DNA from: a virus
IMG/VR virus record: IMGVR_UViG_3300007960_000014
Span: 20,207-84,206 of that record
Direction: 5' to 3' (one strand)
Length of the DNA: 64,000 nucleotides
Each line of letters opens with the position of its first letter. The first letter of the stretch is position 1. Under the pieces are notes generated by a model, which ran no database searches, had not been told where the DNA came from, and saw only the letters and a program-made list of their open reading frames with translations. A program made the position numbers and the translations under genes. Shown piece by piece: positions 43,570 through 53,391 of this stretch.

Positions 43570-45276
43570 TTACTCTCCCAACCCGAGGGACTCTACAAGG
43601 TATCTAGTTTGTTGACGATTTGCTTTTCTCAACTCTGCAGTAAGTCCCCTAATAGCTTCTTCAGAAGCATTGGCTTCCATTGCGTCCACCAGCCTCGATA
43701 GTAAATCTGCTTGTACGCCTAAAAGGTCCTCGTCTCGACCCCTGATATTTTGCCCAAGGACCCCCCGAGTATCTTCAATCGTTCGATTTGCCTCCATAAA
43801 ACTAGCGGGCATGACAGTGCCACCTGCTTCTTTGTATGCCGCAAATTCAGGTGATTTCCCGGCAGCGTAGACGCGAGCCATTACATCAAACATGGTGTCT
43901 CCGAACATTAAACCTTTACCAGACGCTAGCCCAGCGTTAATAGCGGTAAACGCAAGCGTCATAGAGTCGAATAAATTAACCATTTTACTAAACGCAGGCA
44001 CGATATGATTATCGAACAATCCTACAAAGTAAGCTTGCATATCGTCTATTGCTTTTTTGACCTCTGCTAGGGTATTATCGAAAATTGCAGGTAGCGTGTT
44101 AACGAAGAAGTTTTTAGATATAGCAAACCATTCAGGTACATTCGTCATTAAGTAAGCCTTAGCAATCTTAAAGTATTCATTACCCATCTTCGCCATCTCT
44201 CCAAACGCCCTTAGACCTGATTCTATATTTTCAGAGGTTACATTCTTCCGTATCCAATCACCTAGTTCGGTAGTAAAATTAATTATATCGTTATTAAATT
44301 TCGGAAGTACTTCTTTGAACGCAGTAAAAATATTACTTATCATTTCTGTACTAGCGCTAATTAGCGGCATCAATGCACTTTGAAGCTCCAATTGAAGTTC
44401 TGCTAATTCATCAGTAAACAGCTTAGTTGCTTGCTGTTTAGCCATTTCTATCCTGCTAGCTTCCTCAGCCATAGCCAACTGAGACATGTTTACCTGAGCT
44501 AATTGCCTAAGAACATTAACGTCTCCTTGTGACAGCCCAAACATTTGTGCAGCAATACCAGCAGTAAACGGAGCTCCAGGGGTGACTAGTCTATCAATCC
44601 TAGAAATTACGCCTTGAGCAAGTGCAACCATTTGCTCAGGAGACTCCATCGCTCCCATACCCCCGCCAGCCAACGCAGCTCTCCTAAATCCTTCAGGGTC
44701 GGCAGTAATAAACTTGGACATTACAGGACCAAGCCGCTCTGCCATCATCGGACCCATTGCAGCTCCTAGACCCACAATAGACTCTGCGAAACCTGCCGCA
44801 GCTGTAGCGCCAAAGGCATTGCTTATTCTTGCCATAGGTTCTACTAGACTGCCCATTACTTTCACTAGCTGGTCGGCGTTTCTTCCGAATGTGGCTGCGA
44901 AATCTATAGTAGCGTCTACTAAGTTACCTGTAGTCGTTTCATTCATACCAAGAACCTGCTCAAAGGTTCCCATAGTACTCATGAAACTTCCTAAGTTAAA
45001 CCCAAGACGTTTAACATCAATAATAAGCTGCTTGTTTACTCCCTGTATATCAACGCCCGTTTGAATGCTTTGTCCCAACATTTGGGTAACATCCTTCATA
45101 GACACGTCTAAGCCACGGAACTGGTCGGTGAGACCTTTAAAGTTATCACCAAAATCTCTGCCTGTCCGTAACGTAACTTTGGTGAGCTCCTCAATAGAAT
45201 GCATCAACGGCGGAAACAGTGATGGCATCACCGTATCTTTTAGTTCATTGAGCGTTTCGTTAAGATTATCAGCCAT
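43570..45276 (-). CDS. Tail tape measure protein (T4 gp29-like)
   Basis: A 568-residue protein (T4 gp29 590), helical throughout with long hydrophobic Ala/Gly-rich segments near 120-215 (LVDATIDFAATFGRNADQLV; FGATAAAGFAESIVGLGAA) and amphipathic helices up to 400. It sets tail length and is probably ejected with the DNA. The tape-length rule of about 1.5 angstrom per residue would give a tail near 85 nm, similar to T4 (estimate). The start overlaps the stop of the 197-residue gene by 1 bp. The hub chaperone gene lies 4 kb upstream. Confidence 0.8.
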   Translation of the reverse strand: MADNLNETLNELKDTVMPSLFPPLMHSIEELTKVTLRTGRDFGDNFKGLTDQFRGLDVSMKDVTQMLGQSIQTGVDIQGVNKQLIIDVKRLGFNLGSFMSTMGTFEQVLGMNETTTGNLVDATIDFAATFGRNADQLVKVMGSLVEPMARISNAFGATAAAGFAESIVGLGAAMGPMMAERLGPVMSKFITADPEGFRRAALAGGGMGAMESPEQMVALAQGVISRIDRLVTPGAPFTAGIAAQMFGLSQGDVNVLRQLAQVNMSQLAMAEEASRIEMAKQQATKLFTDELAELQLELQSALMPLISASTEMISNIFTAFKEVLPKFNNDIINFTTELGDWIRKNVTSENIESGLRAFGEMAKMGNEYFKIAKAYLMTNVPEWFAISKNFFVNTLPAIFDNTLAEVKKAIDDMQAYFVGLFDNHIVPAFSKMVNLFDSMTLAFTAINAGLASGKGLMFGDTMFDVMARVYAAGKSPEFAAYKEAGGTVMPASFMEANRTIEDTRGVLGQNIRGRDEDLLGVQADLLSRLVDAMEANASEEAIRGLTAELRKANRQQTRYLVESLGLGE

Positions 45277-45869
45277 TAGAGAGTAGCGTTGTAGTTATCT
45301 GGGTCTATTGCAGCGAAGTTGGATACGTAATTTTTGTTAAAAACTCTGTACCCTTCTCCATTATAAAATTTTATTTTTAAAGCATCCAGCATGGTTACGT
45401 TTCGTCTTTTTCCGTATCTTGAAATTAACTCACTAACCAAGAATGGTGCTAAAGTATCTAGCCTTATGCCAGCAAAGTACTGATTTCCTACAGCTAAGGA
45501 TTTTCTAGGTTTCTTGGAATATTTCCTGTTCCTCAGAAAAGACTTAGAGACTCTGCTAGAAGTTTTCCCAGTAAATTTATTTCTTCTCGTAATTAGGGGA
45601 GGGTAGGGAAGACCTGCCATTTCCACAGAAGTGTGTTGGAATGGCTCATAATTAAAATACATAGAATTGCTTCTATCCGTATCGACAAGCATGATAAGAG
45701 CTGTGTCTTCTCTAGAGTTTGGACCGTTATACTCAAAATAATAGATGCAAGAATTCTCTACTCTACCTAATCCAATTAGCGGTAACGCTCTTCTGGTGGC
45801 TACAAAGTTTTGAAACTCAGGTGTAGCGTTGTATAGGTCTAGTTTTTTTGGAGTATTTTTCTTTGCCAT
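45276..45869 (-). CDS. Unknown tail-module protein
   Basis: A 197-residue protein, not recognised. The first half is beta-rich (SCIYYFEYNGPN, TALIMLVDTDRSNSMYFNYE), the middle is basic (RRNKFTGKTSSRVSKSFLRN) and the C-terminal part is helical then beta (DTLAPFLVSELISRYGKRRN). It is the first gene of the tape-measure-to-spike group, behind a strong late-promoter box, and is 1 bp coupled to tape measure. A baseplate or tape-measure-binding role comes only from position. Confidence 0.45.
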   Translation of the reverse strand: MAKKNTPKKLDLYNATPEFQNFVATRRALPLIGLGRVENSCIYYFEYNGPNSREDTALIMLVDTDRSNSMYFNYEPFQHTSVEMAGLPYPPLITRRNKFTGKTSSRVSKSFLRNRKYSKKPRKSLAVGNQYFAGIRLDTLAPFLVSELISRYGKRRNVTMLDALKIKFYNGEGYRVFNKNYVSNFAAIDPDNYNATL

Positions 45870-47019: not shown

Positions 47020-47998
47020 TACGATACCTGCTAATCTTATTAAAGAGTATTTACGAGAAAAGTTCGAAGAGTTTCGAGAAAGAAACTCGGAGTTTCTCGT
47101 TAATTCCATATTCTACGATGACCAGAAGTTCCATATGTCCATTAACATGGAGACTGGACTATGGCAGGATTTCAAGGCTCACGAGTCTGGCAACTTTTAT
47201 CACCTGATTTCTTTGTTGGAAGGGATTTCTTACTCCGAAGCCGTAAGAAAAATAAACAAAAAATTACTTAACAATGCTGCAGAACTAATATTCTCCCCGC
47301 CTCCCGTGGAAGCGAAGCAGCTCTCTACAAATAGCGTTGCTGAGGAATTTAAAAACTTTAAAAAAATAGATGTCGCTAAGTTTTACTGGTCAGATGTTCT
47401 GTACGAGAGACTGGCAGCTAAGTTCATAATCGATAGAGGGCTGGAGAAAGGTACCTTCTACTATGCCTTTGAAGGTAAGTACTGCAACCGCATCATCATT
47501 CCTTATATGAAGAACGGTGTTCCTTATTACTTCCAGGCTCGTACCCTCACGCGCAACAAATTAAAATACATAAATCCTACCAAAGCCGAGCACGGGGTAA
47601 AGTCCTCAGAGATTTTGTATCCGTTCGACCGTAGCAAAGATTACGTAGTTATTACTGAAGGTCCTATAGATGCTCTTACCTTGCAGCTTAACGGTATAAA
47701 TGCTACCTCAACTCAAGGCTGTCATATTTCCTACGCCCAATTGGATATGTTGAAAGGGAAAAAACTTATTTTCTCGTATGATAATGACGAGGCGGGGGCG
47801 ATAGGTTTGAAGAACGCTAGGCAAGTGTGTTTGCGTAAAAATATATCGCAACTATATCAAACCACTCCTCCTACTGGGTTCAAGGATTGGAATGAGCTTC
47901 ACGCAAAAAAGAAGGACCCAAAGCTCTTATTTGATATATTAAACCTTAATGTCGCGAGGATGGATTTTGAGTACTTTGCTACCTCACTATTACCTTAA
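47012..47998 (+). CDS. DNA primase with TOPRIM domain (T4 gp61-like), zinc cysteines lost
   Basis: A 328-residue protein (T4 gp61 342). The TOPRIM motifs are EGPIDA (residues 216-221, catalytic Glu) and SYDNDEAG (D257, D259), preceded by the RNA-polymerase-like region (IIIPYMKNGVPYYFQARTLT). The N-terminal 85 residues occupy the position of the zinc-binding ribbon (GLWQDFKAHESGNFYHLISL) but have no cysteine at all. It makes RNA primers at the fork. The start at 47012 has a GGGAG ribosome site 11 nt upstream and overlaps the nuclease start on the other strand. The 3' end overlaps the convergent 330-residue gene by 20 bp. Confidence 0.8.
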   Translation: MNITIPANLIKEYLREKFEEFRERNSEFLVNSIFYDDQKFHMSINMETGLWQDFKAHESGNFYHLISLLEGISYSEAVRKINKKLLNNAAELIFSPPPVEAKQLSTNSVAEEFKNFKKIDVAKFYWSDVLYERLAAKFIIDRGLEKGTFYYAFEGKYCNRIIIPYMKNGVPYYFQARTLTRNKLKYINPTKAEHGVKSSEILYPFDRSKDYVVITEGPIDALTLQLNGINATSTQGCHISYAQLDMLKGKKLIFSYDNDEAGAIGLKNARQVCLRKNISQLYQTTPPTGFKDWNELHAKKKDPKLLFDILNLNVARMDFEYFATSLLP

Positions 47999-48971
47999 AC
48001 TTCTTACTGTATATCCGTTCGTTTAGTACGTCGTATTTAGCTTGGATTTGGTATACACCTCTTGGAGTACCAAAACCGTCATTTGCCGCGAGAGTGGTCA
48101 ATACGTTAGTATCGAAATTAAATATTACAGTATCGTCCGAAGTGATTCTCACTAAACCTGAAGTATCGGCATACCCCGAAACCTCGTACTGCCCTGTAAA
48201 ACCAACCTCTTCGTTTAGTTTAGTTATCCTAATCGCAGCGTTTTGAATGATTGATTCCCTGAAGCTGTCCCGAACTTCTACCGGAATGTTTCTATTCTCT
48301 GACGTAAATGAAGTCTCTAACGTTAAATCAACTGTTGAGCCAAACTCGATGTATTTTTGTTTAAGTCGAGTGTTGGTCGTTAAGGTCAGGGGTTCTGTGG
48401 TAGTAACCCAGACATCATTCTTTAGTCTGAACTTGTTGCTGTACGTGGTCCAAGCGCCAGTCTCTGTGTTCTTAACTACCCACAAATCAAAGTACTGACC
48501 CGCCGCGCTAGCCTCGTTACTTCTTACAGCAGAAGTTTCTGGCTGAATGCCGCTCGCATCAGGAACTAGAACGCAAGCAAACTGACCTACACCTGTTCTG
48601 TAAATTCCGCTAGCACCCGAAACGCCGCCCGTAAAGTTTCCCGCACTAAAGTCTGAAGCTGTGGTGTCCCTTTGTCCTCTGTGCCAGTCAATATTATGGA
48701 AGGTCATGACGGCGTCTTCTACAATATCGTACTTAGGGAGCCCGTATCTGGAAGAACTAGTATCTAAATCTAATAGAGGTTCTGGGATACCATTGGTAGT
48801 ATACCCTAATTCTGCGCTAGACGCGTTGGTGTCTTTAAATACGTATACCGCTGAAATCGCGTAAGGGTCCGTGTAACTTCCGTTATTGTAGAAGTTTAGC
48901 TCCAAATCAGTCTTTGACTGGACCGTTGGGCGATTATGACGGGGGACGACTATTATATTGTTTAGCTTCAT
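47979..48971 (-). CDS. Unknown virion-type beta protein
   Basis: A 330-residue protein, not recognised. It is beta-rich throughout, beginning with a short domain-entry strand set (LNNIIVVPRHNRPTVQSKTD), then alternating strands with Thr/Ser and aromatic residues, and a final GVYQIQAKYDVLNERIYSKK. The last segment resembles an Ig-like strand ladder. It sits directly after the hub chaperone gene and before the primase island, so a tail or baseplate protein is likely. There are no catalytic motifs. Confidence 0.45.
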   Translation of the reverse strand: MKLNNIIVVPRHNRPTVQSKTDLELNFYNNGSYTDPYAISAVYVFKDTNASSAELGYTTNGIPEPLLDLDTSSSRYGLPKYDIVEDAVMTFHNIDWHRGQRDTTASDFSAGNFTGGVSGASGIYRTGVGQFACVLVPDASGIQPETSAVRSNEASAAGQYFDLWVVKNTETGAWTTYSNKFRLKNDVWVTTTEPLTLTTNTRLKQKYIEFGSTVDLTLETSFTSENRNIPVEVRDSFRESIIQNAAIRITKLNEEVGFTGQYEVSGYADTSGLVRITSDDTVIFNFDTNVLTTLAANDGFGTPRGVYQIQAKYDVLNERIYSKKFKVIVR

Positions 48972-48977
48972 TATACT

Positions 48978-49169
48978 TTATTTATTCTTCGCCTTCTCAA
49001 TTTGTTCCCTTTCTCTCTCATTTTCTTCATGTTTGAGGGAAATATACCTTTCCCTCTCTTTTCTAGTGAGCATGAGAACGTCCTTGAACGAAAATCGGCA
49101 ATGCCTTATAAGTATATACGCTTCTTGTTCCAACGAGTCGTCAGCTAATCTCTGACTCAGTTCACTGAA
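48978..49169 (-). CDS. Predicted -1 frameshift extension of the gp26-like chaperone (63 codons)
   Basis: This frame has no usable ATG at its beginning yet is fully open from the T-tract at 49168-49175 to TAA at 48978. It encodes a strongly protein-like sequence: a helix ELSQRLADDSLEQEAYILIR, then FSFKDVLMLTRKERERYISL, then a charged helical tail. A -1 slip in the T8 run of the gp26-like gene, two codons before its stop region, would append 63 residues to 273 residues, making about 336. The pattern 'Y.l....fs..dv..m...er..yi' is like the T part of tail assembly chaperones. The nearest internal ATG would leave only about 34 residues, too little for the conserved-looking part. Confidence 0.7.
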   Translation of the reverse strand, partial: FSELSQRLADDSLEQEAYILIRHCRFSFKDVLMLTRKERERYISLKHEENEREREQIEKAKNK

Positions 49170-49987
49170 AAAAAATGTTCATTCAATGTCAGGGTTGTTT
49201 TGTTCTCCCGCTGACACCCTCCGCAAGGATAAATAATCTCATTTTCAAATCCTAGTGAGAAATCAAATATTTTCTTCCTGAGTACTGTAACGTCTTTTAC
49301 AGTGGTTTTTCTAATAAACGCAAAGATGATAGCTTCATCTGTCACGCCCTCTACAGAAACGACAAAACGATTAATATTGTCTACTATCTGTTCTGGAGTG
49401 CTAAGGTGTGGTTCGTCTATAACTCTAGGGAACCTGATAATAGCTGTCTTCTTAGAATCCGGCAGGAAAACCTTCGTATACTCTTCGTAATCCTCCTGGA
49501 AATACGTTACCGGCAGTGCCGATAACTCCAGTTTCAATGTGTTGTTGGTTTTGCAAGTATCACATTTGCCTACAATTGGATACGTGCTTCCGTAGGAAAG
49601 CTCTCTAAGCTTAAATAAAATATAATTTTTATCAAATACGGTTAGAGCCTCTACCGGAATTCCTCTTATGCAGTTGTTTAGGAGAGAAACAATTGCTTCG
49701 TTACCTGCTCCTTCTTGAGCAGCCAATCTAAGATTTCTTTCGTCATCGAACGTAAAGGGTCGTATTTCTATGCTATCGTTGTTGTAGTCATTATAGCATT
49801 TTCCTAGTGATGGCAACTTGATTGAAACCCATGATTTTTTCTCTACTACGTTCTCCAAGAGAGCGTTTAGAGTTTCATTAATTTTATCATTGTCCGTAGG
49901 TCTTTCTACCGGAGCTTTAGGAGTAACAGGCATAGCTTGTAAGCCATCCTCTCTCATCATGTCTACAATACCTTTTTCTTCTGACAT
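49157..49987 (-). CDS. Baseplate hub assembly chaperone (T4 gp26-like)
   Basis: A 276-residue protein (T4 gp26 208). Residues about 50-135 (WVSIKLPSLGKCYND, then IEIRPFTFDDER, LLNNCI and ILFKLRELSYG) and two CxxC pairs (KCDTCKTN near 142, YPCGGC near 255) match the zinc-ribbon-bearing gp26-like family found beside tape measure genes. It is a tail assembly factor not expected in the mature virion. The end of the gene, HFFSVN followed by stop, contains the eight-T slippery tract that leads into the 63-codon extension. Start ATG at 49987; a TATAAT element lies about 30 nt upstream. Confidence 0.7.
   Translation of the reverse strand: MSEEKGIVDMMREDGLQAMPVTPKAPVERPTDNDKINETLNALLENVVEKKSWVSIKLPSLGKCYNDYNNDSIEIRPFTFDDERNLRLAAQEGAGNEAIVSLLNNCIRGIPVEALTVFDKNYILFKLRELSYGSTYPIVGKCDTCKTNNTLKLELSALPVTYFQEDYEEYTKVFLPDSKKTAIIRFPRVIDEPHLSTPEQIVDNINRFVVSVEGVTDEAIIFAFIRKTTVKDVTVLRKKIFDFSLGFENEIIYPCGGCQRENKTTLTLNEHFFSVN
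49168..49175 (-). promoter_or_regulatory. Slippery T8 tract, candidate -1 frameshift site
   Basis: On the minus strand the codons read CAT TTT TTT TCA; slipping back one base after the second TTT gives TTC AGT GAA and opens the 63-codon frame. The zero-frame stop follows 9 nt after the tract. It is the longest T run inside a gene end in this window that I noticed. No strong downstream stem is obvious by eye. Confidence 0.65.
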
Positions 49988-50066: not shown

Positions 50067-51419
50067 ATGATTGAAATAGTAGTTGGCAACATCACTTCGG
50101 TGCTAAAAACTAAGAGCAAAAAACTCCTTCAGATTCTAGAACAGAAGTATACAAAAAAGCTCCCAGGCTATCAGTACAGCTCAGCGTACAAAAGACGTGG
50201 ATGGGATGGAGGAAAGAAGTATTTCTCAGGCAAGACAGGCAAATTCGGCTCAGGATTGCTTTCTCATATAATAGCAGATTTGGAGTACGGAGAACTTCCT
50301 TACGTTATTAAGGATGAGAGGACCCTTTTCCCCTTTTCTCCTTCGTACATAGACAGCTTGGATTTGAGAGAATACCAAACTAGTATGGTCGAAGAAGCCT
50401 TGGAAAGAAGAAGCTGTTTAATAAAAGCTCCTACAGGGTCAGGCAAGACCATTATTATGGCATCTCTACTCCAAGCCCTTAAAAAAAGAAAGGGGTTGGT
50501 GTTCTTTACGAAGAAGCAGCTACTATACCAAACCTATAAATTTCTAGAAAAACATGGGATAGAAGTAGGTGTAGCTTTTGGAGACGGTGTGGATATCAAG
50601 CCCATCACTTTGTGCACTATACAATCTATTCATAAGGTTCTAGACTCGCATTTAGAAGATTCAGAGTTTATTATGTTTGATGAGGTTCATGAGTTTTCAA
50701 AGGGAAAGCTGGCAACAAAGGTGTTAAAGTCCTTTAAGAACGCTTCTTGTCGTATAGGGTTTACTGCCACAGTACCTCCTGAGGATTACGCCAAATTAAA
50801 TCTAATCTCTTACCTTGGGGAGGTGGTAGAAGAAACCGACATCAACCAACTTATTGATGAGGGTTTCCTGACCAAGCCCGAGATAACCGTATTTGATATC
50901 CCTGATAGGGGAACCGTAGAGGACACGGAAATTCCTTATCGTGAGGTGTACACAAAATACATTACTGAAAACGAAGAACGTAACGGTATTATTGTGGACT
51001 TGTGCAAGAAAATATTAGCCAAGCCTAGTAAGACTCTTGTGCTTGTGAAAGACCTTAAGCACGCAGATATTCTGCACGAGCTAATCCCCAACTCTTATAA
51101 ACTAGAGGGTAAAGACTCTCTCTTGTGCAGGGAAGCTACTTTAGAAAAATTTAAAAAAGAGGAAAGCTCTGTTATGATTGGCACCACTATTTTTCAGACA
51201 GGGGTAGATATACCCGAACTCACCCACTTAATAAACGCTAGAGGGTTAAAATCTGAGATTGCTACCATACAAGCTTTAGGACGTGCGCTACGTGTGCATG
51301 AATCGAAGAATAAAGTTTTTATCTATGATTTTAAAGATAAAGTTCCTTACCTACAAAAACACGCTAATTTAAGAATTAAGTCCTATAATAATTTAGGATT
51401 ATCCGTAACAATACTATGA
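50067..51419 (+). CDS. SF2 DNA helicase (T4 UvsW-like)
   Basis: A 450-residue protein (T4 UvsW about 500). Motifs in order: an N-terminal DNA-binding part with YKRRGWDGGKKYF, Walker A APTGSGKT (121-128), motif II DEVH (205-208), motif III GFTATVP (231-237), and motif VI ALGRALRV near the end. UvsW unwinds branched and R-loop structures and switches replication mode. The start is at 50067 (MIEIVVGN); the longer frame upstream lies inside the opposite gene. No Shine-Dalgarno sequence, only AT-rich sequence with TAAATAAAT before the ATG. It is coupled by ATGA overlap to the 83-residue gene. Confidence 0.88.
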   Translation: MIEIVVGNITSVLKTKSKKLLQILEQKYTKKLPGYQYSSAYKRRGWDGGKKYFSGKTGKFGSGLLSHIIADLEYGELPYVIKDERTLFPFSPSYIDSLDLREYQTSMVEEALERRSCLIKAPTGSGKTIIMASLLQALKKRKGLVFFTKKQLLYQTYKFLEKHGIEVGVAFGDGVDIKPITLCTIQSIHKVLDSHLEDSEFIMFDEVHEFSKGKLATKVLKSFKNASCRIGFTATVPPEDYAKLNLISYLGEVVEETDINQLIDEGFLTKPEITVFDIPDRGTVEDTEIPYREVYTKYITENEERNGIIVDLCKKILAKPSKTLVLVKDLKHADILHELIPNSYKLEGKDSLLCREATLEKFKKEESSVMIGTTIFQTGVDIPELTHLINARGLKSEIATIQALGRALRVHESKNKVFIYDFKDKVPYLQKHANLRIKSYNNLGLSVTIL

Positions 51420-51667
51420 CAAAGAAAGATATTTATTTTACCACCGAAGAGAAGAAGATTGAAGCTGCCAACAAACTCTCTGACGAAGACATAGAGCAAC
51501 TTAGATTTTTTAAATCTGAGCTTGATGCAATACTAGAGTCTAAGACCATTAGCCTCCAAAATACGCAAAAGCTGGATAATCTTGTTACCCAGCTTCTTAC
51601 TATGCGTTCTAGACATTCTTTTTCAATTATGTCTTGGCTACGCCAAAAATACATTATTGATTATTAA
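51416..51667 (+). CDS. Small helical protein after the helicase (UvsW.1 position)
   Basis: An 83-residue protein starting inside the helicase stop (ATGA). It is helical and charged (KKIEAANKLSDEDIEQLRFF; NTQKLDNLVTQLLTMRSR). In T4 a small helical protein, UvsW.1, is likewise encoded right after UvsW, but sequence similarity cannot be judged by eye, so this is a positional suggestion. Its TAA overlaps the stop codon of the convergent 575-residue gene in a shared TTAA. Confidence 0.5.
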   Translation: MTKKDIYFTTEEKKIEAANKLSDEDIEQLRFFKSELDAILESKTISLQNTQKLDNLVTQLLTMRSRHSFSIMSWLRQKYIIDY

Positions 51668-53391
51668 ACGTCCATATCTTCTTGCTCGTCACCTTCAAGC
51701 TTATCGAAATCTAAATCTTTCATTAAGTCTTTCATGTCGGAGACTAAGCTTTTTATTTCTTCATCAGAAAGCGCACCTTCAGCAGGAGGAGCTTCCTCTT
51801 CTTCAACCTCTTCAGTCTCAGGAGCTTCTTGTTCAGGAGCTTCAACTGCTTCGGTTACTTTCTTCTTCTTTGAACGAAGGTTTTTCAAGTCTTTTTCATC
51901 AATATCCCCATCTTTGTCGGTATCCATCTCGTCGCTTTGCTCTTTAGATAGACCCTTCTTATCCTTCTTCTCTTTCTTGTCGTCCTCCTTTTCACCGTGG
52001 TCTTTTGATGGAGTACCTTCTTCTTCGTCGTCAACGTCCATCTCGTCCTCATCATCACCTCGGTATTGACCGCCGCCAACATCAGAAGGCTTAGCCTTTT
52101 TAGCTTCTAGTAAGCCGTACTCTTCGGCAACAACGTCGCCTAAATATTCCATATCAACGCTTTCGGTTAACCAGTTAGAATCTTCATCATCAGACTCGAA
52201 GCACTCGTTGATGAAATCGTTAATATCTAATACTTCAACTCCGCCTTTACCTTTGATGAAGGCACCGAACTCGTGTAAGAAGTCGCCAAGAACCTTGCTA
52301 TCTTCCGATAGGCGCGAGAGAGCTTCAAACATTACAGACTGAGTTTTCGCTAAGTTTGAGAAAGAAGGGATAAACTTAAGGTTGTTTACGTTTACCCCGT
52401 AAGTTTCGTTAAGAGCGGAAATCATTATAGCTTTCGCAGGCTTCTTCATCTCAAAGATTTTAGATACGAAACTTCTAATATCTTTCTTCGTAACGGTTCC
52501 AGGGTCAGTTACTTCGTACACGGAGGTAATTACCTCATTGATATCAGACTTCGACGCTAACGCAAAGTAAGGCACGTTCCTGATGGTTTCTACTATAGCT
52601 GCCTCTATCGCCTCATCTTCAGAGTAAATGCAGGAGGCGAGCCTAGAAATGCTCTCATTGTCTGCCCACAGGGAGGCAAAGTTTTTCTTAGATTCTAGTA
52701 GCTCTCTGCTGATAAGCTCCTGTCTGCAGATGGTCTCGTAAAGAGAATGCTTTAGATTTTTGCTTACATCAATAGAGCCTACGTTTATAATCTCAGCTAA
52801 TTTTAAATTAGGTGCGTCAAAAGCGGTAGAGAGAGCTTTTGTTAGTTTAAGACCGTTAACAATGTCGTTACATTCAAATATGGTATCTCTGTTCTCAGCA
52901 ATAAACTCCTTAATCTGAGTCTTCATTTCCTGTAGCTTGTGATACTCTACAGTATCTCTTACAGTTGTCTTGTGGTCAAAGCGGCTCATCTTCTTGTAAA
53001 GCTCGCTTCGGACTTCATTTATTTGATTTCTGTAGGAAAACGCCGCTAGGATTTTACCGAATGAATTTTCGGCACCTTCGTAGGTATTTTTATGCAAAGA
53101 CCGAACTAGCTCGCTAACGTTCTCAGCAACAAACTCGTCTACCTTTTCGTCGGAGACGATACTGTCTGCGCTTTCTAATTCAAAATCTGATAGTTTAGTA
53201 TTGCCGTTACTAAAATCGTAAGTGGCTCCGACCAGATACCCCGACTCAGTTAGAAAAGTTGCTCTGTTCTTGGCAGCAGCAACATCAAAAACGACGACGT
53301 TTTCTCTAATGCAAGTGCCTAAGTAGTCAGCTGCCTCACTAATGCGAACAAAAGTAAGATTGCGTTCTTCAAATAAGTTGTTAAATTCCAT
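51664..53391 (-). CDS. Charged head/prohead-core-like protein with an EF-hand loop
   Basis: A 575-residue protein directly after portal. Residues 1-430 are mostly helical (FAENVSELVRSLHKNT-like segments; ECNDIVNGLKLTKALSTAF). Residues about 430-575 are low-complexity acidic/lysine-rich and include a textbook EF-hand loop DTDKDGDIDEKD at 490-501 (ligand positions 1, 3, 5, G6, I8 and D12). In T4 the genes after portal are the core proteins 67 and 68; position and composition suggest a similar scaffold or internal role. No catalytic motif. A late-promoter box and an AAAGGAAAA ribosome site precede it. Confidence 0.5.
   Translation of the reverse strand: MEFNNLFEERNLTFVRISEAADYLGTCIRENVVVFDVAAAKNRATFLTESGYLVGATYDFSNGNTKLSDFELESADSIVSDEKVDEFVAENVSELVRSLHKNTYEGAENSFGKILAAFSYRNQINEVRSELYKKMSRFDHKTTVRDTVEYHKLQEMKTQIKEFIAENRDTIFECNDIVNGLKLTKALSTAFDAPNLKLAEIINVGSIDVSKNLKHSLYETICRQELISRELLESKKNFASLWADNESISRLASCIYSEDEAIEAAIVETIRNVPYFALASKSDINEVITSVYEVTDPGTVTKKDIRSFVSKIFEMKKPAKAIMISALNETYGVNVNNLKFIPSFSNLAKTQSVMFEALSRLSEDSKVLGDFLHEFGAFIKGKGGVEVLDINDFINECFESDDEDSNWLTESVDMEYLGDVVAEEYGLLEAKKAKPSDVGGGQYRGDDEDEMDVDDEEEGTPSKDHGEKEDDKKEKKDKKGLSKEQSDEMDTDKDGDIDEKDLKNLRSKKKKVTEAVEAPEQEAPETEEVEEEEAPPAEGALSDEEIKSLVSDMKDLMKDLDFDKLEGDEQEDMDV

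Follow-up and report, generated by a model that had tools for sequence, protein, structure and literature searches.

The gp26-like gene analysed here very probably gives rise to two proteins, with ribosomes slipping back by one base at a run of T near its 3' end so that a second, longer product is made. A programmed -1 frameshift yielding a pair of tail assembly chaperones of the G/GT type is the best explanation of the locus, and we assign it a probability of roughly 0.86. Judged from sequence, gp26 would be the short and a gp26-gp51 fusion the long member of this pair. The frameshift had been proposed in a preliminary description of this DNA, and it is now supported by the slip site, by an extension that behaves as coding sequence in the -1 frame, by the lack of a usable start codon for that extension in relatives, and by the homology of the two parts to gp26 and gp51. 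The features concerned are listed below; coordinates are those of the window, the whole stretch of 64,000 nucleotides that was analysed.

49157..49987, minus strand: gp26-like gene, 276 aa, the putative short, G-like chaperone form (PF12322 and phrog_150 matches).
49175-49168, minus strand: run of eight T (T8) containing the slippery heptamer (sequence; invariant in loci L001-L006).
49169..49175, minus strand: slippery heptamer T_TTT_TTT, read from 49175 to 49169, zero-frame CAT TTT TTT (sequence).
49157..49159, minus strand: zero-frame stop codon TGA, 8 nt (CA GTG AAC) past T8 (sequence; TAA in relatives).
48978..49169, minus strand: -1-frame extension of 63 codons plus TAA, predicted gp51-like C-terminal (T-like) domain (translation, pN/pS and profiles).
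47979-48971, 43570-45869 and 51664-53391: large proteins around gp26 without a Pfam or PHROG family.

The gene ends ...AAT GAA CAT TTT TTT TCA GTG AAC TGA, in agreement with the earlier report of a T run closely followed by a stop, and the last base of CAT together with the two TTT codons makes an in-phase U_UUU_UUU heptamer. From the slip the -1 frame is open for the 63 codons that had been claimed, from 49169 to 48978, and translates as FSELSQRL...EKAKNK; a fusion formed at this point would have 273 + 63 = 336 residues, the length given before. The combination is rare in the window. It has 65 open reading frames that reach 100 aa, counting both strands and spurious frames; five of these have an in-frame X_XXY_YYZ heptamer within their last 15 codons, and the gp26-like gene alone (1/65) joins such a heptamer to a -1 frame that stays open for 30 codons or more beyond the stop.

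The arrangement is also conserved. The gp26-like gene is present at 99-100% identity in four contigs, which do not differ in T8, the stop or the open -1 frame, and at 73-76% protein identity in L005 and L006, which come from independent assemblies. T8, the near stop and the -1 extension are kept in all of L001-L006, and thus neither the slippery tract nor the open frame has been lost in the more divergent L005 and L006. When the window is compared with these two, the extension has a pN of 0.10-0.12 and a pS of 0.69-0.73 in the -1 frame, with no excess of silent changes in either of the other two frames. The extension is therefore under strong purifying selection, and in the -1 frame only; a T tract and a -1 frame conserved together, the latter with a synonymous bias, are what the preliminary description had proposed to look for in relatives. 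A 15-nt block (ATTTTTTTTCAGTGA) is invariant among the window, L005 and L006; the retention of T in Phe codons is by itself weak evidence, TTT being used by all three sequences at 8 of the 12 conserved Phe positions in any case.

The identity of the zero-frame product is clear at the level of the family. In profile searches the protein matches PF12322 (T4_baseplate) with E=1.8e-22 and 80.5 bits against a curated cut-off of 24.5, and the PHROG family of baseplate hub proteins phrog_150 with E=9.7e-25. Its closest named relatives, at ~25-30% identity, are found in Bacillus phage SP-15, Listeria phage LIS04 and Streptococcus phage GXN1. The model predicted for it has a mean pLDDT of 76.5 and in BFVD matches the baseplate hub subunit of SP-15 with E=3.1e-18. 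The top PDB match of this model is the HK97 chaperone 2ob9, weakly (E=1.0, prob 0.23), and a sequence-profile search against solved structures gave no match. Named phages returned nothing by direct DNA similarity, nor by tblastn with the extension. PF12322 is represented once in the 84-kb record, a viral contig that may be a fragment, and no second gene of the family was found in it.

The window also encodes a terminase, a portal, a gp25-like baseplate protein and a baseplate wedge subunit, and this gene content is consistent with a myophage of the T4 superfamily. The divergent neighbour of gp26 is a UvsW-like superfamily 2 helicase (50067-51416); uvsW of T4 likewise lies near genes 25, 26 and 51. 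The preliminary description had placed the gene beside that for the tape measure protein, and here the picture is mixed. No tape measure or tube gene was recognised in the window, and the large proteins around gp26 (330, 568, 197 and 575 aa) have no Pfam or PHROG match by which a sheath, tube or tape measure gene could be recognised among them. In SP-15 and LIS04, however, gp26 does lie between the tube and tape measure genes.

The extension can be assigned to the C-terminal domain of gp51. Its profile aligns with gp51-type extensions of cyanophages (hhalign 87%, E=4e-6), which agrees with the T-part character ascribed to it earlier. The chain can be followed further, as the profile of the window lineage matches that of the SP-15-type extensions at 75.5% and the cyanophage-type profile matches the SP-15 type at 95% and the C-terminus of T4 gp51 at 89% (E=2e-6; all hhalign). 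The extension is predicted to fold as a helical bundle (pLDDT 89), for which the best BFVD match is Gp51 of P-HM1, with a probability of 0.99 but E=0.14; a tail assembly chaperone of a Microbacterium phage is also among the best matches of the model, with weak E-values. The DUF6760 family (PF20546) occurs near contractile injection system genes, and the extension (48981-49169) scores below the cut-off for it, at 15.7 bits against 27 (E=0.016) and 14.2 bits in the genome search. A link to contractile injection systems was dropped, the match being sub-threshold and without support from the distribution of gp26: no SP-15-type gp26 was found on plasmids, and in one bacterial phylum, for which 392 genomes were covered, PF12322 turned up in just 4.

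T4 itself shows what the long form looks like as one gene. Residues 1-201 of T4 gp51 are a PF12322 domain (E=3.9e-52), the extension motif comes after it, and the gene lies beside gene 26 on the opposite strand. The fused long form thus exists as a single gene in T4. Whereas the window lineage would shift frame, T4 has no frameshift but a duplicated and fused gene, gp51 being a gp26 paralogue with the extension joined in frame. The idea that T4 gene 26 has an extension of its own was rejected, because gene 25 follows at once.

The arrangement recurs in distant relatives. In a set of 80 fetched cyanophage-type loci (L067-L146), 80/80 have T_TTT_TTC and a -1 frame that is open from there onwards, with exactly one codon between slip and stop in 78, and the median extension is 59 codons in the -1 frame against 4 in the +1 frame. 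The codon before the Phe pair encodes Ser, Asp, Ala or Asn, yet it always ends in T; the nominal value of 10^-16 for this overstates the case, because the rows are related. T_TTT_TT(C/T/G) stands at the same place in nine named phages (ZZ01, P-HM1, S-RIM2, S-RIM44, phiM7, phiWae14, ACP17, RHph_Y68 and Vibrio D527). An ATG occurs at the fourth codon after the slip in 56 of the 80 cyanophage-type loci, and some of these phages could make both the fusion and a free gp51 fragment.

These sites bear directly on whether the slip might take place during transcription instead. RNA polymerase could add an extra U on T8, giving a fraction of U9 mRNA in which gp26 and the extension lie in one frame, and the protein would be the same. 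Long homopolymers favour polymerase slippage, and the T8 found here is longer than the six T of the homologous cyanophage sites. Such an origin is nevertheless unlikely: those homologous sites have only six T, set in phase as the ribosomal heptamer in every cyanophage-type locus, and they argue for a ribosomal mechanism, which covers the whole family, phase included.

Re-initiation near the stop would produce a separate small gp51-like protein and no fusion, and several distant loci lend this some colour. A TAATG overlap starts the gp51-type extension in a 595-kb phage (L017:3889-3893) and in the Vibrio phages VP-1 and D493 (L030:2194-2198, L028:2077-2081), where it suggests stop-restart instead of frameshifting; the early ATG of many cyanophage-type loci points the same way, as does the annotation of 'gp51' as a separate gene in database records. 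Within the window lineage, however, the evidence is against it. The first ATG is codon 33 of the extension, as the earlier claim that none lies near its start implies; the one TTG, at codon 13, is replaced by TTA in L005, where no ATG, GTG or TTG precedes codon 34; residues upstream of the candidate start codons are conserved, and no ribosome-binding site was found at these candidates. Ordinary re-initiation cannot explain the extension given the state of L005, and a separate gene with a conserved start of its own was rejected for the window lineage and its close relatives by this start-codon survey, which leaves re-initiation here very improbable. As for annotation, none of 16 annotated phage records marks the gp26 gene as joined, and some annotated small genes start inside the conserved extension domain (L021:2256-2393, L024:2271-2393), as expected if annotators needed a start codon for a frameshift extension. 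Homopolymers are error-prone in sequencing and a single extra T would join the frames into one continuous gene with T9, but a sequencing error or recently broken gene is excluded by T8, a conserved in-frame stop and an open -1 frame in independent assemblies at 100% and 73-76% identity, and by homologous genes that share the broken arrangement with different run lengths.

In the programmed -1 frameshift that we prefer, most ribosomes would stop at TGA and release the short chaperone, gp26, of 276 aa. A minority would slip by -1 while two Phe tRNAs are on U_UUU_UUU, in tandem and at low frequency, and would read 63 more codons to give the 336-aa gp26-gp51 fusion as the minor form. If lambda gpG/gpGT is taken as the model, the gp26 part common to both products may coat the tape measure protein, and the extension, carried by the minority form alone, may serve to recruit tube subunits or hub partners; the two forms would depart before tail completion. 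Downstream RNA structure was not stronger than in shuffled sequences (z +0.8 and +1.15), so that a stimulatory hairpin after the slip was set aside, and there is no clear Shine-Dalgarno stimulator upstream. Lacking either of these, the slip could be of low efficiency.

A second decoding route may operate in the group that holds the closest named relatives of the window. The gp26 genes of SP-15-like and rumen-type phages (L014, L015, L016, L032-L063 and L147) also have a gp51-type extension just past the stop, which lies in the +1 frame. Twenty-one of the 27 distinct loci combine TTY TTT C with a +1 frame that is open from there; the site coincides with the Phe-Phe codons of the -1 sites, and GT (giving CGT) usually comes next. 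From the Phe pair onwards, the zero frame reads FF-V/A/G-stop in the -1 clade (L018, L020-L025, L029) and mostly FFRP in the +1 clade (L014-L016, L032-L063); the shifted frames read FFR in the former and FFV in the latter, and the two reading frames look swapped between the clades. No description of the +1 clade was found in the literature searched, and it may be new.

In a tree of 44 gp26 sequences the SP-15-like clade is separate and well supported (98/92), and the window lineage forms a long branch outside it, between this clade and the T4/cyanophage type. The sampled sequences can be explained by a single switch between -1 and +1, for which the unrooted tree gives no direction. On balance we favour a reading in which the gp26 family has kept a two-product output while the decoding route varies. 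The routes would be -1 frameshifting in the T4/cyanophage-type clade and the window lineage, +1 frameshifting in SP-15-like phages, TAATG stop-restart in some lineages, and duplication with fusion in T4.

How new the locus is has to be judged against earlier work. In lambda, gpG and gpGT arise by a programmed -1 frameshift (described in PMC5009743), and the same 2016 review considered G-T frameshifting to be widely conserved 'except T4'. Sullivan 2010 noted that the gp51 of cyanophages is only about one fifth as long as other gp51 proteins, whose C-terminal part it matches (PMC3037559). More recently, as cited in PMC10885494 and PMC12846349, Vladimirov, Gautam and Davidson (2022, Virology 566:9-15) recognised gp26 and gp51 as the tail assembly chaperones of T4-like phages, and poly-T slip sites in the short chaperone genes are cited from the same work. 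The preliminary description held that a frameshift at the gp26 locus of a T4-like phage would be notable in itself; going by these citations of the 2022 paper, that was overstated, and we do not present gp26/gp51 as newly recognised frameshifted chaperones. What is new, and well supported, is a deep, divergent and previously undescribed lineage of a known frameshifted chaperone type, to which the window locus is, on the 2022 identification as cited, a divergent addition.

The likenesses and differences are specific. With the T4-like system, as the 2022 work is cited, the window shares the PF12322 family, the logic of a short and a long chaperone and a poly-T slip site ending the short-form gene, but its lineage is deep and separate, at the low identity to named phages given above, and it has T8 with U_UUU_UUU and two codons more before the stop where U_UUU_UUC and one codon are usual. 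With lambda gpG/gpGT it has in common that two frames overlap, that a -1 slip would take place close to the 3' end of the first, and that the long chaperone, predicted to be the minority form, would have an additional C-terminal domain; sequence homology is not detectable and the slip sequence differs. As to HK97-type chaperones, the structural match is not significant. Cyanophage and Prochlorococcus gp26 with its short 'gp51' has a homologous extension and a slip site with an open -1 frame, but is annotated as two genes and often has an ATG soon after the slip, which the window lineage lacks. The SP-15/LIS04/GXN1-type gp26 (Thornevirus-like, rumen-type) likewise combines a PF12322-type protein with a homologous extension located shortly after the stop, but has it in the +1 frame.

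The phages in which one gene yields two tail chaperones gain a deep lineage with the window locus, which also provides independent sequence evidence in support of T4 gp26 and gp51 as the counterparts of lambda gpG and gpGT. The long-obscure gp51, a 'hub assembly catalyst', thereby gains a testable role. Many phage records annotate gp51 separately, several of them with a start codon inside the conserved domain. A single family that apparently uses -1 and +1 shifts, restart and duplication is a good natural system for the study of changes in recoding direction, and if all four routes are real, selection preserves the long form and not the mechanism by which it is made.
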